A program made the translations under genes and the position numbers. Shown piece by piece: positions 30,623 through 36,770 of a DNA stretch of 64,000 bases. Within the stretch, counting starts at the first letter, position 1; each line of letters begins with the position of its first letter. The DNA lies in NCBI GenBank assembly GCA_029261855.1, contig JAJDAN010000089.1, forward strand, positions 372,001-436,000. The letters are read 5' to 3'. The notes beneath the pieces are model-generated. The model worked only from the letters and a program-made list of their open reading frames with translations. It was not told the origin of the DNA and made no database searches. This DNA is from Deltaproteobacteria bacterium. GTDB taxonomy: Bacteria; Myxococcota_A; UBA9160; UBA4427.

Positions 30623-32503
30623 TCACTCGAGTCGCAGGACCTCGAGTCTACGGTTGGGCTCCTGGGCGGCGTGACTCCCGTCCGGGGGGACCAGCGGCTC
30701 GCTTCCACCCTTGCCCCGGACTTCCAGCTGGTCGTCGACGAGGTGACCCCGGTCCGTGAGCCATTCATGGATCGCCGCGGCGCGCCGCTCGCTCAGCTCC
30801 TGCTGATGGCTCGGCGTGCCGTTCGAGTCGGTGTGGACTTCGAGACGGACTCGTCGTTCCGGATGCAGAGCGAGGAGGTTCGCCAGGCGCGACAACTCGA
30901 GCCCTCCCCGGTCTCGCAGCTGCGCGCTGCCATTCTGGAAGATCCCGTCCGTCGGCATGTACACCCGGGGCGCGGCCGTGTCGCCGCCGAAGAAGACATT
31001 GGGGTTGCGATTGGCGTGCTCGACCGAGATCCGCGACAGCCGCGGCCGCGCGCGCTCGTCCTGGGCGGAAACCCAACCGCCCGGCCGCGGCGAACGTCCG
31101 GAGAACGAACGGAATTCCGAAGCCGCGCGCGCCTCGGAGCCCGGGTAGAACCCGCCGTACGCTGCCCCGCCGTCGCTCTCCGGTGAATCGGCGGGCGCCC
31201 CACCGGCAGGCGGCGCGCTCGCGGGCTGATCGGTAGACGGCTGACCCGCAGAAGGCCGACCCGTGGAAGGCCAGGACCCGAAAGAACGCGCGGGCGTGGA
31301 CGGCGACGAGGAAGGCTGTGTCGAAGGCGAAGGCTGCGCGGAGGACCCGCCAGACTCTTCAAAGGCCTGTGGCCGCCCGCCGGATGCCGGCGCGGCCGGC
31401 CAGCGCCCGCCGGGTGTCGTGCGCGGCGGCGCAACGTGACGAATGCCGGCCTGCGCTTCGGCGACGGCCGACCCGGCACGCGACCCCGGCGCGGCGCAGC
31501 CTCCGTCGAGTTGCCAGCAACTGGCGCACACGAGCAGCGTCCACGCGGTCGCGGCGAGACAGAAGGGCCAACGCAGCTGCACCATGCCACTGACGACGAC
31601 GGGCGCGCCCAACCAGGGAAGGGTCGCCACCGCCGCGACGCCACAACCGAGCTGCCACCAGCCGAGCAGGGGGTCCGCGTAGCCAACGGCCTGACCCAGC
31701 ACCAGCGCGAGGCCGAGCCAGCCGTGTAGAGCGGACGTCCCGACCGTCACGCCCCGAGTCGCAAGGCGCAGCAACAACGCCAGGACGAGCGGCGTTGCCC
31801 AGGTGATCGCTGCGTGTGCGCCACAGCCGAGCGCGAAGGCCACGGTCCCGACGCACAGCACCAGCGTCGCCAGCCCCCAACGCAGGCGCGCATAGACGAC
31901 GTCGCCCTCGGTGCCCAAGACCTCGGATGCCCCGCCGGCGGGCGCGGTCGAAGTCCGGATCGCGGGCTTCTCTAGCCGCAACTCCGGGACGTTGACGGGC
32001 TCGGCTCTGTCGGGCTCGGCTCTCTCGGGCTCGGCTCTTTCGGGCTCGGTTCTCTCCGCTTCGACGTCGAGCTCGTGCGGTGGCGGTCGGGGGGCGACGA
32101 AGTCATCGTCCGCGCGTTGCGGCGGCGCGAGTCGCGCCTGCAGGGTGCCGACGATGGTGCCGTACGCCCTGCCCTTCGACTCAGCGGGGTGCATGAGCTT
32201 CCAGTCGCGGATGCGAACGTCGAAGAGCGGTCGCTGGCGAGGCCCATGGCCCGCCTCGCCTTCGCAGAGCAGGAGCTCGACCCGCTTCACGCGGTCCTGG
32301 CGGATGACCTCTTCTCGTGGCGCGGTCGCGGGTGGTTCGGGCACGCGTGCGAAGTCCCGCAACGTGCCGGACTCGATCTCGAACTGGAAGCGCCGAGCAC
32401 CCGGCGGGTCGCCGGTCTCGCCGCTCTCGCCCCGGACGCGATCTCCCGCGCAGACGCCCACGAAGCGCCCCTCGATCCACTCGTCTCGTCGGGCCTCGGA
32501 CAT
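30623..32503 (-). CDS. Multi-spanning inner-membrane protein with C-terminal OmpA/MotB domain
   Basis: A 626-residue protein. Residues 1-130 form a soluble domain of unknown type. About 130-185 is an acidic linker built from ERAEP repeats. About 200-335 holds several hydrophobic membrane segments (LATLVLCVGTVAFALGCG; ALLLRLATRG; LALVLGQAVGY; WPFCLAATAWTLLVCASC). About 340-470 is a Ser/Pro/Gly-rich disordered stretch. The last 125 residues are an OmpA-like peptidoglycan-binding domain (RVRLEVHTDSNG, LSERRAAAIHEWL, NRRLEVLRL). The linker length would let the OmpA domain reach the cell wall. It is 18 bp downstream of the DUF4407 gene, so the two probably form one envelope complex. Function unknown. 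Confidence 0.82.
   Translation of the reverse strand: MSEARRDEWIEGRFVGVCAGDRVRGESGETGDPPGARRFQFEIESGTLRDFARVPEPPATAPREEVIRQDRVKRVELLLCEGEAGHGPRQRPLFDVRIRDWKLMHPAESKGRAYGTIVGTLQARLAPPQRADDDFVAPRPPPHELDVEAERTEPERAEPERAEPDRAEPVNVPELRLEKPAIRTSTAPAGGASEVLGTEGDVVYARLRWGLATLVLCVGTVAFALGCGAHAAITWATPLVLALLLRLATRGVTVGTSALHGWLGLALVLGQAVGYADPLLGWWQLGCGVAAVATLPWLGAPVVVSGMVQLRWPFCLAATAWTLLVCASCWQLDGGCAAPGSRAGSAVAEAQAGIRHVAPPRTTPGGRWPAAPASGGRPQAFEESGGSSAQPSPSTQPSSSPSTPARSFGSWPSTGRPSAGQPSTDQPASAPPAGGAPADSPESDGGAAYGGFYPGSEARAASEFRSFSGRSPRPGGWVSAQDERARPRLSRISVEHANRNPNVFFGGDTAAPRVYMPTDGIFQNGSAQLRDRGGLELSRLANLLALHPERRVRLEVHTDSNGTPSHQQELSERRAAAIHEWLTDRGHLVDDQLEVRGKGGSEPLVPPDGSHAAQEPNRRLEVLRLE
31997..32056 (-). 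repeat. Four 15-bp tandem repeats encoding an acidic ERAEP linker
   Basis: Four near-identical copies of GGGCTCGGCTCTCTC (plus-strand sense) lie head to tail inside the OmpA-like gene and encode ERAEP/DRAEP units. Differences are confined to one or two bases per unit, suggesting recent expansion by slippage. Confidence 0.85.
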
Positions 32504-32521
32504 GATCTCAGGCAGCGCGGG

Positions 32522-33805
32522 TCACTTGCGGGAGCCGACGGGCCGGAGATGCGCGTCCGGCGCCGGGCGCGGCGCCTGGGATTCCGTCGCACGCGCTGCT
32601 CCCGCCTGCAGGCGACGACGGGCTTCGGCGAACGCGGCGTCGGCCTCGTGGTAGACATCCACCCGGATCTCTTCGTTCGTGTCCGCCAGGTAGATCTGCG
32701 CGTCGGCTTCGATGCCGGCGCGTGCAGTCGTCACGCGGATCTCGTTCTCGAGCAGATAGTCGTAGGCGCCCTTGCGCAACATCATCTTGAAGAAGATCGG
32801 CCCGGTCTCGATGGCGATCAGCAGCAACAAGATGAAGATGGGCACCCAACCGCCGATCTCGTGGGAGATGTGGATGCGCTTCATCAGGCCGTCGAGGTTG
32901 CGCGCCTGACGCAGGTTGCTTGCCCGAGCGGCCTCGAGCTGCCCGTCCACCGCGGCCAGCTCGGTCTTCCAGCGTGCGATCTCGGCGAGTGCCGGCTGGT
33001 TCTTCTCCGCGTCCCGAGAGCGGTCGCGGTCGAGCTCGAGCAGCATCTGGTCCAGATTCTCGCGCTTGTCCCGCCAGGCGGGACCGCGACCCGCCACACC
33101 GCTCCCCGTCTTGCCTTCGGCCTCGAGCTCGAGCAGGCGGCGCTGCTGGTTGATCTCGATCCGGCGCCTTTCGAAGTAGCCCTCACGCTCGTCCAGGCGA
33201 TCCATGGACGCGGCGATTCGCGCTCTCAGCTCGTCCGTCGTGCTCTCGAAGATGCGATCCGTGTGGTTGTTCAGCTGGGTCAGGTAGTCGTTCTGCTCGA
33301 GCTCGAGCTGAGCGTCGATCTCGGGCTTGAGCACGCGGATCTCGAGCGGCGCCGAGATGCAGACGCCGATCAGAATCGCCATCAACAAGCGAGGCAGCGA
33401 CTGCAACAGTTCCTGCAGCGTGATCCGCTCGGTGCCATCGCCCTTGCCGGTACTCGACACGATGAAGCGGTCGATGTTGAAGATCACGAGGCCCCACACG
33501 AGGCCCGCGAGACTCGCGAGACAGAAGGTCGGCCAGTCGAGCTGCCGATCGAGTGCGGTGCCCGTCTTGGGCTCGAAGACGGTGTAGAAGGCATACGACC
33601 CGGACGCGAAGGCGAGAACCGCCGTCGCCAACACCACGCCGCCGATGCCCTGGAACTTCACCCAGTCCGTCTTGGGGCAACGGGACAGGACGGGGGCGTC
33701 TGCGCCGGCGCATGACCACAGGAAACGCGTTGCGAGACCGGGTCCGCGCGGGGAGACCGGCGGCCTGGAGCTCGCTCGGGATGTGGGTCGTTGGGGCTGG
33801 GCCAT
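32522..33805 (-). CDS. DUF4407 membrane protein with central coiled coil
   Basis: A 427-residue DUF4407 protein. Membrane segments lie at about 55-77 (VVLATAVLAFASGSYAFYTV), 90-112 (SLAGLVWGLVIFNIDRFIV, containing the family FNxDRFIV signature), 135-155 (LLMAILIGVCISAPLEI) and 325-345 (PIFILLLLIAIETGPIFF). Between the third and fourth is a 160-residue charged coiled coil (LDEREGYFERRRIEINQQ onward) that must project to one side of the membrane. ATG 33805. Members of this family are of unknown function. The linked OmpA-domain gene downstream suggests a cell-wall-anchored membrane assembly, in outline like a stator pair, but no MotA similarity is seen. Confidence 0.85.
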   Translation of the reverse strand: MAQPQRPTSRASSRPPVSPRGPGLATRFLWSCAGADAPVLSRCPKTDWVKFQGIGGVVLATAVLAFASGSYAFYTVFEPKTGTALDRQLDWPTFCLASLAGLVWGLVIFNIDRFIVSSTGKGDGTERITLQELLQSLPRLLMAILIGVCISAPLEIRVLKPEIDAQLELEQNDYLTQLNNHTDRIFESTTDELRARIAASMDRLDEREGYFERRRIEINQQRRLLELEAEGKTGSGVAGRGPAWRDKRENLDQMLLELDRDRSRDAEKNQPALAEIARWKTELAAVDGQLEAARASNLRQARNLDGLMKRIHISHEIGGWVPIFILLLLIAIETGPIFFKMMLRKGAYDYLLENEIRVTTARAGIEADAQIYLADTNEEIRVDVYHEADAAFAEARRRLQAGAARATESQAPRPAPDAHLRPVGSRK

Positions 33806-33908
33806 TCGGCGTCCTTCCGTGCGCGGCGCTTCTCGGCTTCATCGGCCGACGGCGGCAGCGGGTGAACGATGGCGTCCGACCCGGCTGGACGATTCTCGCC
33901 AGGGTGTA

Positions 33909-33922
33909 GAGGGTGTACCCTC
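33909..33922. promoter_or_regulatory. Perfect palindrome directly upstream of ribA start
   Basis: GAGGGT-GT-ACCCTC is a perfect 6-bp inverted repeat ending 7 bp before the ATG of the cyclohydrolase gene. The octamer AGGGTGTA is also directly repeated at 33901-33908 and 33910-33917. It covers the position where a Shine-Dalgarno should be, so protein binding or RNA folding here could control expression. No known regulator is identified. Confidence 0.35.
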
Positions 33923-33929
33923 TCGCGCG

Positions 33930-34748
33930 ATGTTCACGTACCTGAATCCCCAGATCCGAGAGCGACTGATCGAAGACGGCAAGCTGCTGCGCATCGACGC
34001 CACCGGGAATCGCCTCGACCCGCGGGCGGCCCCGCCCGCCGACGCGCTCAGCGTGAACCTGCTGGGACCGATCCCACTACCGGTCCACATCGGGGGCGTC
34101 CGTCACGTCGTCGACTGGTACGCCACGGTCCGCAGCTCCGAGCTGCGTGAGGTGGAAGAGCTGGCCACGACCCTACGCGAGAGCGGGGGGCAGCATCTGT
34201 TCTCGATGCTCGCCTCGTCGATGGCCGTGAACAGCGTGCTCGTGGTCGGGAACCCCGAGGAGAGCGAGTCGCCTCTGGTTCGCGTCCACTCGAGCTGCCT
34301 CACAGGCGATGTCTTCGGGTCCGAACGCTGCGAGTGCGGCCCCCAATTGGCCGACGCCGTCGGGCGGATCTGCGAAGAAGACACCGGCGGTCTGCTCATC
34401 TACATGGCGGGACACGAGGGTCGCGGTATCGGGCTGTGGGCCAAGGCCGCGACCTACCTGCTCCAGGACGGGGGCGAGGACACCTACCAGGCCAACCAGT
34501 CCCTGGGCCTGCCCGAAGACTCACGGGACTTCAGCGACGCGGCAGCCCTGTTGCACTTCTTCGTGGGCAACCGCCCCATACGCCTGCTCACCAACAACCC
34601 GAAGAAGATCGCGGACCTCACGGAGTACGGCCTCTCGGAGATCACCCCGATCAAGCACGTGACCGGAGTCAGCGAGTGGAACCGTCGCTACCTGGCGGCG
34701 AAGCTGAACTGGGGGCACCGGATCGAGTCCTCGGACCTCGACGAATAG
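33930..34748 (+). CDS. ribA: GTP cyclohydrolase II, stand-alone
   Basis: A 272-residue GTP cyclohydrolase II, the first committed step of riboflavin synthesis (GTP to diaminohydroxyribosylaminopyrimidine phosphate, formate and pyrophosphate). The zinc ligands are intact in SCLTGDVFGSERCECG, the catalytic region MAGHEGRGIGL is present, and DTYQANQSLGLPEDSRDFSDAA plus LLTNNPKKI match the family. The N-terminal 80 residues are an extension beyond the roughly 200-residue E. coli RibA. ATG 33930 is used. It is convergent with a RibBA gene whose own cyclohydrolase half looks inactive, so this enzyme probably supplies the missing activity. Confidence 0.92.
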   Translation: MFTYLNPQIRERLIEDGKLLRIDATGNRLDPRAAPPADALSVNLLGPIPLPVHIGGVRHVVDWYATVRSSELREVEELATTLRESGGQHLFSMLASSMAVNSVLVVGNPEESESPLVRVHSSCLTGDVFGSERCECGPQLADAVGRICEEDTGGLLIYMAGHEGRGIGLWAKAATYLLQDGGEDTYQANQSLGLPEDSRDFSDAAALLHFFVGNRPIRLLTNNPKKIADLTEYGLSEITPIKHVTGVSEWNRRYLAAKLNWGHRIESSDLDE

Positions 34749-34767
34749 AGCCGACCGCCGGCGGCTA

Positions 34768-35940
34768 CTACTTGCGCGGCCGAAGAGGCAGGACCGGAGC
34801 GTTCGGCGGGTTCAGCGGGACGATCTCTTCGACCGAGAGGTCGAAGCCTTCGAGACCCACGATGTGCCTCGGCCGATTGGTCATCAGACGCATGCGGTGC
34901 ACCCCGAGATCCGACAGGATCTGCGCACCGACACCGATGTCCCGCAACCGATCCGAGTCGTTGCGCGACTCCTCGGACGAAGCCGCATCCGGCCCCGTGG
35001 ACGGCCTGTTTTCGGCCGCGACGACGCGCTTCAGGGCGTCGCCGATACGCATGCCACCCCCGGGCTGGCCGATCTGCACGAGCACCCCGCGACCCTCCTT
35101 CTCGATCCGGGTCAGAGGCACCTCCAGGACGCTCGGACGACCGAGGTCCGCGTTGAAGGCGAGCACCGGCGCCGAGGTCTGCATCCTCACCAGGACGGGC
35201 TCGCCGTCGGACAGGTCTCCCTTCATGAACGCCACGTGCTCGGCGTCCCCCACCTCGCTGCGATACACGATGGTGTGGAAGGTGCCGTACACGAAATCGA
35301 TGTCGAGCTCGACGTAGCGACTGACGAGCTTTTCCTTGGCACGTCGGAACGCGATGAGATCGTCGATCGAGACGATCTTCAGGTCGAACTTCTTCGCGAA
35401 GGCCTCGAGCTCGGGCCGCCGCGCCATCGTGCCGTCGTCCTTCAGGATCTCACAGATGACACCGGCGGGGCTCAGACCCGCGAGTCGCGCGAGATCCACC
35501 GAGCCTTCGGTATGACCGGTCCGCACGAGCACACCACCGTCCCGGGCGATCAGAGGGAAGACATGGCCGGGCCTGGCGAGGTCGCGTCCGGTACAGCGCG
35601 GGTCGACGGCAGTCTTGATCGTGTGGGCGCGGTCGGCAGCGCTGATGCCCGTCGTGACCCCGCTGCGGGCCTCGATGGAAACCGTGAACGCGGTCCCGAA
35701 CGCTTCGGAATTGTCCCGGACCATGAGCGGGAGATCGAGCTGTCTGGCGCGGTCTTCCGTCAGGGTGAGGCAGATGAGGCCCCGCCCGTTCATGGCCATG
35801 AAGTTCACCCATTCCGGCGTGACCTTCTCTGCGGCAACGACGATGTCGCCTTCGTTCTCCCGATCCTCGTCGTCGACCAGGATGACGGCCTTGCCGTTGC
35901 GGATGTCTTCGATCGCTTCACGTACGCGCGATAGGGCCAC
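34768..35940 (-). CDS. ribB: RibBA: DHBP synthase with degenerate GTP cyclohydrolase II domain
   Basis: A 390-residue bifunctional-type protein. Residues 1-205 are a complete 3,4-dihydroxy-2-butanone-4-phosphate synthase ([13 protein letters not shown] acidic loop; [14 protein letters not shown]), which makes the four-carbon riboflavin precursor from ribulose 5-phosphate. Residues about 210-390 align with GTP cyclohydrolase II. The zinc cysteines, however, are gone: the position of CLTGDxxxSxxCxCG reads [14 protein letters not shown], and GHEGRGIGL has become GQPGGGMRI. The late binding segment ([20 protein letters not shown]) survives. Start is GTG 35940 with GGAGGA upstream. The second domain is probably non-catalytic, perhaps structural. 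Confidence 0.92.
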
Positions 35941-35972
35941 CAAGACGATCCTCCCGGATGGGTGCGATAGCG

Positions 35973-36050
35973 GCGAGCGACTGCAGCGAGCGACTGCAGC
36001 GAGCGACAACAGCGAGCGACAACAGCGAGCGACAACGGCGAACGATAACA
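35973..36050. repeat. Six 13-bp tandem repeats upstream of ribBA
   Basis: The unit GCGAGCGACTGCA (or GCGAGCGACAACA) is repeated six times head to tail, with the core GCGAGCGAC identical in five copies and the last copy diverged (GCGAACGAT). It occupies most of the 128-bp gap between the RibBA start and the stop of the PEP-CTERM-like gene, both on the minus strand. A 13-bp period is not a multiple of three. Options are protein-binding iterons controlling ribB, or a slippage-born minisatellite. No FMN riboswitch is seen in this gap. Confidence 0.85.
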
Positions 36051-36068
36051 CGGCCCGAGCGGGGGGCC

Positions 36069-36770
36069 TCAGCCGCTCCGGTGTCTCGCCCCGCGCCCTG
36101 CCCGCCGGCGGCGCCCTCTGCAGTAACCGAGCAACGCGACACCCACCGCGGCCAGGACTCCGCTTCCGGGCTCCGGGTTCGAGATGAAGGGATCGAGGCT
36201 CGTATTGCCGATCGGCTGGAAGGGAGAGCCGTCCACCGAGAACCGGATCGTTGCGGGTCCTCCGCAGCATCCCTCGAAGCCCACCCAACCGATCGTATAC
36301 GAAGAGCCGGCGGCGAGCGCGGCGGTCGTCGTGAAGACGTCCGGATTGTTCCAGTCGTTCGCCCACCAGATGTCGTCGGTGGTGACGAACTCGTCGATCA
36401 CCGTACCGGAGCCGTTGTCGATCACGACGGCTGCGCCCCCGCGTCCCCAGTCGGTTCCGACCTGGAACGACCAGGTGCCGCCAACCTCGACGTCGATCAC
36501 CGTCGTCATCAGCACGCTGTAGTCCGTGGTGACTCCCGCGTAGATCGGTGCGGCTACGCCATCGAGCAGATCGAGGGAGTTCTGGGACAGTGGCGTCTCG
36601 GACTGGTGCTGGGCCAGCAGCAACGCCCAGGTGTCCCCGGCTTGCACCTGGTAGGTGGACGCGGCGAAGTCCACCTGGAAGGTGAGCGCCGAGGCAGAGC
36701 CTGGAAGCAGAAGGCCAATGGCCAGCCAGAGACCCGCCCATGTCGATCGAGGACTCATCCTCTGGCTCAT
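36069..36770 (-). CDS. Secreted protein with PEP-CTERM-like sorting signal
   Basis: A 233-residue exported protein. Signal peptide: [18 protein letters not shown], cleaved after about residue 29. The mature part is beta-rich with Asp/Gly/Asn-rich loops ([32 protein letters not shown]). The C-terminus has the tripartite signal of exosortase substrates: PEPG, a hydrophobic helix ([13 protein letters not shown]), then a basic patch ([10 protein letters not shown]). Such proteins are processed by an exosortase and exported to the surface or matrix. No exosortase gene lies in this window. Ligand or matrix function is unknown. Confidence 0.8.

Follow-up and report, generated by a model that had tools for sequence, protein, structure and literature searches.

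A DUF4407 membrane protein and its OmpA-domain neighbour in a Deltaproteobacteria bacterium: conserved linkage, a wider gene module and a possible role in wall sensing

The A/C gene pair

The gene pair described here lies in a window of 64,000 nucleotides from a Deltaproteobacteria bacterium (GenBank assembly GCA_029261855.1, contig JAJDAN010000089.1, positions 372,001 to 436,000), the window being the whole stretch of DNA that was analysed. Two open reading frames (ORFs) on the minus strand encode protein A, a DUF4407 membrane protein, and protein C, in which an N-terminal domain (CN) is followed by a membrane region, a tether and an OmpA-like domain (Table 1). The ATG of C lies at 32503 and the stop codon of A ends at 32522, so that C stands downstream of A with 18 bp between them, as a sequence-only reading of the window had reported. 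The linkage of the two genes is conserved in related genomes, and the pair is most plausibly a reduced version of an operon that recurs in other bacteria.

Protein A is a clear member of PF14362 (DUF4407), with an E-value of 2e-64 and 218 bits against a cut-off of 31.3, residues 39-354 covering model positions 2-295 of 297. The AlphaFold2 (AF2) model, built on an alignment of 64 rows with a mean predicted local distance difference test (pLDDT) score of 86.5, contains three helices of membrane-crossing length (45-77, 91-118, and 137-158), a helical hairpin (160-230/242-302), a fourth such helix (321-342), and a small C-terminal beta/alpha part. The four membrane helices of the sequence-only reading were thus recovered, while its 160-residue coiled coil shortened to a hairpin of ~143 residues. 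Eleven residues are invariant in 64/64 homologues, namely N110, D112, R113, R139, P153, E155, E162, E333, P336, K340, and Y348. In the model, E333 is situated mid-way in membrane helix 4, and D112 and R113 near the end of helix 2. The glycine-rich tip of the hairpin follows the pattern GxG[PT] in 50 of the 64 homologues.

Mean net charges over the segments of A were +1.3 for the N-terminus, -1.25 for loop 1-2, +0.25 for loop 2-3, and -1.8 after transmembrane helix (TM) 3, followed by -0.4 before TM4 and -0.7 after it. The first four values speak for an N-terminus in the cytoplasm and a hairpin in the periplasm; the last one does not. With ~71 residues, the longer arm of the hairpin could span ~10 nm, enough for approaching the wall. 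The fold search returned no match of A to the Protein Data Bank (PDB) at E<=0.001, an absence that is no proof of a new fold, and its VIA-align rows aligned mostly to the helical hairpin. ATG14, JetC, and ABC exporters also matched A weakly, which was put down to resemblance between coils or helices.

Protein C matched PF00691 (OmpA) over residues 522-610 with an E-value of 4e-14 and 53.1 bits against a cut-off of 27.2, and OmpA was the only domain found in it by Pfam. The HTD and LSERRA stretches are retained and align with OprF and other solved OmpA-like domains. Stretches of this type bind the wall in OmpA, and the domain is a putative peptidoglycan-binding one by its identity and by these stretches, in agreement with the peptidoglycan-binding end named in the earlier reading. 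Residues of the related ZorB and Pal domains for binding peptidoglycan are described in the sections of PMC11890865 consulted. Upstream of the domain, residues 346-480 consist to 66% of Ser, Ala, Pro, and Gly (89/135), matching the predicted spacer of roughly 130 residues. The multi-spanning character of C was likewise borne out by several hydropathy peaks between residues 211 and 332, read as about five helices, behind an N-terminal part of ~200 residues.

The sequence-only reading was silent on the N-terminal domain of C and on the wider operon of its relatives. CN (residues ~8-129) was modelled by AF2 as an all-beta domain of five strands with a pLDDT of 88; it had no PDB match at E<=0.001 (best Z 2.9), which, as for A, does not establish a new fold. 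Since the OmpA domain would have to be periplasmic to meet peptidoglycan and the number of membrane helices appears odd, CN would lie in the cytoplasm.

Table 1. Positions of the features of the gene pair in the window, and of caspase-bearing B genes in the loci of relatives
Feature	Position	Strand	Basis
A: DUF4407 inner-membrane protein, 427 aa	32522..33805	-	ORF; PF14362; AF2
A residues 45-158: helices 1-3, with invariant N110, D112, R113, R139, P153, E155	33332..33673	-	AF2; 64/64 homologues
A residues 160-302: helical hairpin, predicted periplasmic, Gly-rich tip	32900..33328	-	AF2; loop charges; tip count
A residues 321-342: membrane helix 4, invariant E333, P336, K340	32780..32845	-	AF2; 64/64 homologues
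A-C gap, 18 bp; position of B in relatives, no B here	32504..32521	.	sequence; B profile search
C: CN, ~5 membrane helices, tether and OmpA domain, 626 aa	30623..32503	-	ORF; PF00691; relatives in G039 and G030
C residues 8-129: CN domain, all-beta, predicted cytoplasmic	32117..32482	-	CN profile E 1.7e-20; AF2
C residues 205-332: membrane region, probably five helices	31508..31891	-	hydropathy; helix number by reading
C residues 346-480: Ser/Ala/Pro/Gly-rich tether	31064..31468	-	composition
C residues 516-622: OmpA-like domain	30638..30958	-	PF00691; alignment to solved domains
Caspase-bearing B	L091 8275-10098; L089 8242-10185; L096 8303-10273; L110 8254-10158		Pfam; motifs

Conservation of the pair in the phylum

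Within the order, DUF4407 exceeded the cut-off in 3/79 genomes: the genome of the window, G039 from the same genus, and G030 from another family. C adjoins A in the same order and on the same strand in all three, with C of G039 split over two contigs and A of G030 cut by a contig end. Identity between G039 and the window amounted to 83% for A, 59% for the first 157 residues of C, and 54% for residues 201-622 of C.

Across the phylum, DUF4407 was detected in 28 of 377 genomes at E<=1e-6. CN occurred in six of the 377, as a single copy in each; it is situated beside A in G000, G039, and G030, and only B, a second DUF4407 protein described below, separates it from A in G157, G266, and G325. The probability that all six CN genomes fall among the 28 DUF4407 genomes by chance is ~1e-7, adjacency not yet counted. 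A gene nearer to B than to A was present in five genomes (G112, G157, G198, G266, and G325), each time beside A, and the remaining matches of this search were DUF4407 genes already found. In G112, an OmpA protein without CN lies upstream of A, and the locus of G198 is cut by the contig. The linkage of A and C is therefore real and conserved. It is a property of one DUF4407 clade and not of the whole family, since an OmpA neighbour was found in 0/8 examined loci from the 16 genomes of family f16 with divergent DUF4407 genes, and DUF4407 in G329 and G253 had no module partner nearby. The survey of OmpA partners that the sequence-only reading had proposed hence found A linked to a CN/OmpA partner across genomes, within that one clade.

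The X-A-B-C module in other bacteria

A scan of a genome collection with a profile of seven A sequences gave at least 555 relatives, of which the best 80 were taken as named loci, a choice that biases them towards close relatives. An A gene could be called in 78 of the 80 loci (L064 and L069 were lost to the simple gene caller); 71 loci were left after redundancy filtering at 90%, and 54 of those had >=4.5 kb of downstream sequence. Most A genes of the 80 loci are part of a recurrent operon in Bacteroidota, Myxococcota/delta, Bdellovibrio, and other Proteobacteria, and cultured carriers of the module include Flavobacterium sp. LC2016-01 and Niabella drilacis. Apart from one solo clade, the loci keep to a remarkably constant gene order: X, A, B, CN and/or OmpA, a transglutaminase-like protein, and a small membrane protein. 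Loci of the caspase-bearing group have the CN/OmpA gene ahead of X instead.

B is a DUF4407 paralogue of A (hhalign probability 99.6%, E 1e-23), and several B proteins also matched in Pfam. X is a soluble, fast-evolving family of 140-226 aa for which hhalign found no homology to A or to CN. All 42 loci with B and >=4.5 kb downstream have a CN, OmpA, or transglutaminase-like neighbour (CN in 30, OmpA in 17, transglutaminase-like in 28) and 37 of them carry X, the counts for B and X being partly circular because both profiles were seeded by position. Of the 12 loci without B and with as much downstream sequence, 11 have none of these neighbours. At L092, OmpA and transglutaminase-like neighbours are present although no B was called. 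Each of the 37 CN proteins detected in the loci is encoded within three genes of A.

Independent support for the B and X counts comes from split halves and hhalign. Split-half profiles recovered B in 60/62 cases and X in 38/59, the latter with no other matches. The B profiles also pulled in 91-92 other proteins, and those printed were A/DUF4407 genes. The B split-half seeds included L062_1, in fact a C protein, which was removed before the loci were annotated, and the X matches at L123 and L136 are seeds and no evidence.

In 52 B proteins, the acidic residues of A are mostly replaced, with Y, L, and F commonest at position 112 and F at 333, while E is kept at position 155 in 10/52. Since D112, E155, and E333 are absent from most B proteins, A seems to be the active subunit of A/B.

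Two kinds of cysteine peptidase accompany the A/B core. The motif GDCD was found in 32 of 34 transglutaminase-like proteins, and 19 of the 34 matched a strict pattern for the His motif; Pfam Transglut_core remained below the cut-off in the one scanned protein showing it. A caspase domain is located inside the B loop, between membrane helices 3 and 4, in four non-redundant loci (two Methylococcaceae, one Comamonadaceae, and one pond locus). All four are confirmed by Pfam, carry the His and Cys motifs, and are predicted to be periplasmic. Two further candidates were rejected, as the caspases at L102 are separate nearby genes and that at L074 was a weak match without Pfam support. The loci L089 and L090 have equal gene sizes and match scores, although their metagenome-assembled genomes are labelled Sphingomonadales and Oxalobacteraceae and come from one pond study, which points to recent transfer or binning error.

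The C proteins of caspase-bearing loci have an N-terminal zinc-ribbon-like stretch, read by eye from an alignment with one out-of-frame G039 row, with Pfam DZR below the cut-off. The small last gene of some Bacteroidota operons encodes DUF350, which was over the cut-off in 4/13 tested genes and below it in 3/13.

The window pair as a reduced module

In a tree of A built with a quick method, the window, G039, and G030 formed one group with a Shimodaira-Hasegawa-like approximate likelihood ratio test (SH-aLRT) value of 99, nested with two B-carrying Kofleriaceae (SH-aLRT 94). A search of the window's own genome with the B profile matched A itself and nothing else. The X profile had no match there, X being fast-evolving and its profile weak. 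Taking a module-clade A with an adjacent CN partner as the definition of the module, the window contains one; under a definition that includes B, it does not. Gene content and tree position make a reduced module, with A and a wall-anchored C, the best reading of the pair.

Relation to known systems

The sequence-only reading had likened the pair to MotAB, TolQR, or Zorya ZorAB; the layout withstood comparison, the kinship did not. In MotAB, TolQR, and ExbBD, as here, a partner with several TMs stands beside a wall-binding partner and charges are conserved in the membrane. The wall partner in those systems is a single-TM protein with an essential Asp, whereas C has a membrane region of several helices. 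A stator kinship of A found no support in Pfam, NCBIfam, and PADLOC scans or in hhalign: PF01618 (MotA/ExbB) did not match A at E<=1, and hhalign of A against the MotA/ExbB profile gave a probability of 0.8%, compared with 99.6% for the control of A against B.

Zorya shares with the pair an inner-membrane partner with a long helical extension and an OmpA/Pal-type partner binding peptidoglycan, according to the portions of PMC11890865 used. Unlike the tail of ZorA, which is cytoplasmic according to the same portions, the coil of A is predicted to be periplasmic, and C has the multi-helix membrane region and CN in addition. The PADLOC models of ZorA matched neither A of the window (E<=1) nor A of L088 (E<=0.1), and those of ZorB matched C of the window only at residues 551-620, inside the OmpA domain. 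For the flanks of the other loci, 229 proteins were collected, 140 drawn at random, and 125 scanned; the 15 left out comprise 13 small last-position module genes, one protein scanned separately, and one omitted by slip, while at least one last-position gene was kept. ZorC, ZorD, and ZorE were absent among the 25 commonest of 75 families in these 125 proteins, the neighbours in the window having been read by eye only. Of the defence or motility neighbours for which the sequence-only reading had proposed a survey, the two flank scans, covering the 25 commonest of 75 and of 84 families, gave a few defence genes, each at single loci. By analogy, the idea of sensing may carry over from Zorya, whereas the parts do not.

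DUF350 and a beta-rich cytoplasmic protein occur in phage shock protein (PSP) envelope-stress operons according to the part of PMC11237479 consulted, and some Bacteroidota modules likewise end in a DUF350 gene. No PspA was seen among the module proteins scanned with Pfam, which included no dedicated PspA search, and neither 'DUF4407' nor 'transglutaminase' occurs in the main text of PMC11237479. VMAP and iSTAND systems resemble the module in their caspase and transglutaminase-like payloads and, for iSTAND, in OmpA domains after a TM segment (sections of PMC7159879 consulted). They differ in being NTP-dependent, as the title of that paper has it, while no NTPase domain was matched in the module proteins scanned. 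In the literature searched, to which subscription journals and preprints did not belong, DUF4407 was named in three papers and PF14362 in one, in gene-table rows only within the text available, and no account of such an operon naming DUF4407 was found. The gene module is apparently undescribed, and none of the membership tests of known systems assigned it to one.

Proposed function and alternatives

Anatomy, charges, and the placement of OmpA and CN lead to the tentative proposal, possible rather than probable, that A and C form one envelope-spanning, wall-tethered complex that signals the condition of the cell wall and, in fuller versions, controls periplasmic cysteine peptidases. In its favour stand the linkage of CN to A, the payload neighbours of all 42 loci with B, the cysteine motifs of the payloads, and the acids that are invariant in A and mostly replaced in B. 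C would sit in the inner membrane, with its OmpA domain on a flexible tether gripping peptidoglycan and CN in the cytoplasm. A would be the membrane partner, with a hairpin of ~10 nm extending into the periplasm in the direction of the wall. The invariant charges of A (D112, E155, and E333) might couple a periplasmic change to a change in conformation or ion permeability. If the wall were displaced or damaged, OmpA binding or the position of the tether would shift, A/C would switch, and a signal would pass to the CN side. The core of A and its paralogue B would, in fuller versions, carry the peptidases, transglutaminase-like ones on CN-type proteins and caspases in the B loop, and since it carries them, the output there is probably periplasmic proteolysis.

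A further link to the wall comes from a separate DUF4407 clade, in which BlaI and then BlaR1/M56 genes lie upstream in 9/19 loci. These are solo DUF4407 genes of marine Bacteroidota just downstream of BlaI (PF03965) and a BlaR1-type M56 gene (L126, L127, L130-L134, L139, and L143), the neighbours being identified by Pfam in three loci and by similarity in nine. BlaI/BlaR1-type genes are known from cell-wall-antibiotic sensing, and this linkage supports the sensor. The DUF350 last genes lend a faint flavour of envelope stress.

Several observations weigh against the proposed sensor. The segment of A after TM4, expected to be cytoplasmic, is negatively charged, loop 2-3 reaches only +0.25, and the charge bias behind the topology is modest. 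B and the peptidases are missing from the window version, as is X to the extent that a weak profile can tell, and around DUF4407 in G329 and G253 there is no module partner at all. In Kofleriaceae, C (G325; L048 9660-10715 and L066 9056-10111) stops shortly behind the membrane region, and no match to the OmpA profile was obtained in the six frames of L048. Taken with the presence of an OmpA protein in only 17 of the 42 modules, this indicates that the wall anchor is not obligatory. The BlaI/BlaR1 linkage is confined to one lineage, largely one genus, and fewer than half of the tested last genes passed the DUF350 cut-off.

An immune role is rather unlikely. In it, phage adsorption or wall puncture would be sensed at the peptidoglycan, the peptidases would kill or arrest the cell, and the window pair would be a reduced or regulatory form. 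Zorya requires OmpA/Pal-type peptidoglycan binding to stop phages (as given in the consulted text of PMC11890865), and swappable peptidase payloads on a constant core resemble conflict systems. The caspase payload of L091 matched PADLOC PDLC02987, the distribution in the order is patchy (three of 79 genomes), the 15 phage records matched are all Lak megaphages with a DUF4407 of their own, and one locus each has DndC, AbiEii, or a HindVP-type restriction gene in its vicinity. However, A of the window and of L088 and B of L075 and L088 had no PADLOC match save a JetC coil at E 0.085, and no plasmid match was obtained. The defence families listed for the flanks match one or two of the 125 proteins each, a count made with no background set.

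It is doubtful that A and C are an ion-driven, motor-like machine of an origin separate from MotAB, TolQR, ExbBD, and ZorAB, in which A would conduct ions via E333 and D112 and C would act as stator or force transmitter. The invariance of E333, P336, and K340 in helix 4 and of D112, R113, and E155 would suit such a machine, as would the wall-anchored partner and the replacement of most of the acids in B, but A has neither MotA/ExbB profile similarity nor a PDB match at the threshold used, and the membrane region of C is multi-helix with OmpA its only Pfam domain. Equally doubtful is the reading of A and C as a scaffold without any sensing, structural or for quality control, which would keep inner membrane and wall at a distance while the peptidases trim envelope proteins. 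Such a spacer would make use of the long hairpin, the OmpA tether, and the peptidase payloads, but invariant ionisable residues and a conserved CN would be superfluous in it. A broader speculation of no greater probability combines several of these elements. DUF4407 modules would be as yet unrecognised wall-tethered, ion-coupled membrane machines whose heteromeric A/B cores, by periplasmic helical arms, sense a breach of peptidoglycan or inner membrane, for example on phage entry, and fire periplasmic caspase and transglutaminase-like peptidases as an 'envelope inflammasome', with the Lak DUF4407 as a decoy and the window pair as a minimal, sensor-only form. Finally, a chance adjacency of A and C, for which the lack of an OmpA partner in the eight f16 loci and in all 11 B-less solo loci with enough sequence could be cited, is hardly credible given the shared order and strand in G039 and G030 and the restriction of CN to the gene run of A across 377 genomes.

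DUF4407, a family without a study of its own in the papers searched, is thereby given a central place in a defined operon that also has a peptidoglycan anchor, a paralogous partner, and swappable peptidase payloads, which turns it into a testable envelope system. The module would bring in a membrane core that is unrelated in profile to MotA/ExbB yet also pairs with a wall anchor, and it might bring caspase domains located outside the cytoplasm.

Phage records and neighbouring genes

The 15 phage records matched belong to Prevotella Lak megaphages. In the one record that was opened (L145, 5962-7239, plus strand, table 15), a DUF4407-like protein of 425 aa directly follows an ORF that is TonB-receptor-like by eye; a role of the Lak DUF4407 as decoy or modulator is possible. 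Two IMG/VR contigs also matched.

In the window, the gene upstream of A is in divergent orientation by eye. At 33645-36741, a GTP-cyclohydrolase-II-like gene on the plus strand beside A and a convergent RibBA-like gene on the minus strand were read by eye, and the two riboflavin genes stand end to end.

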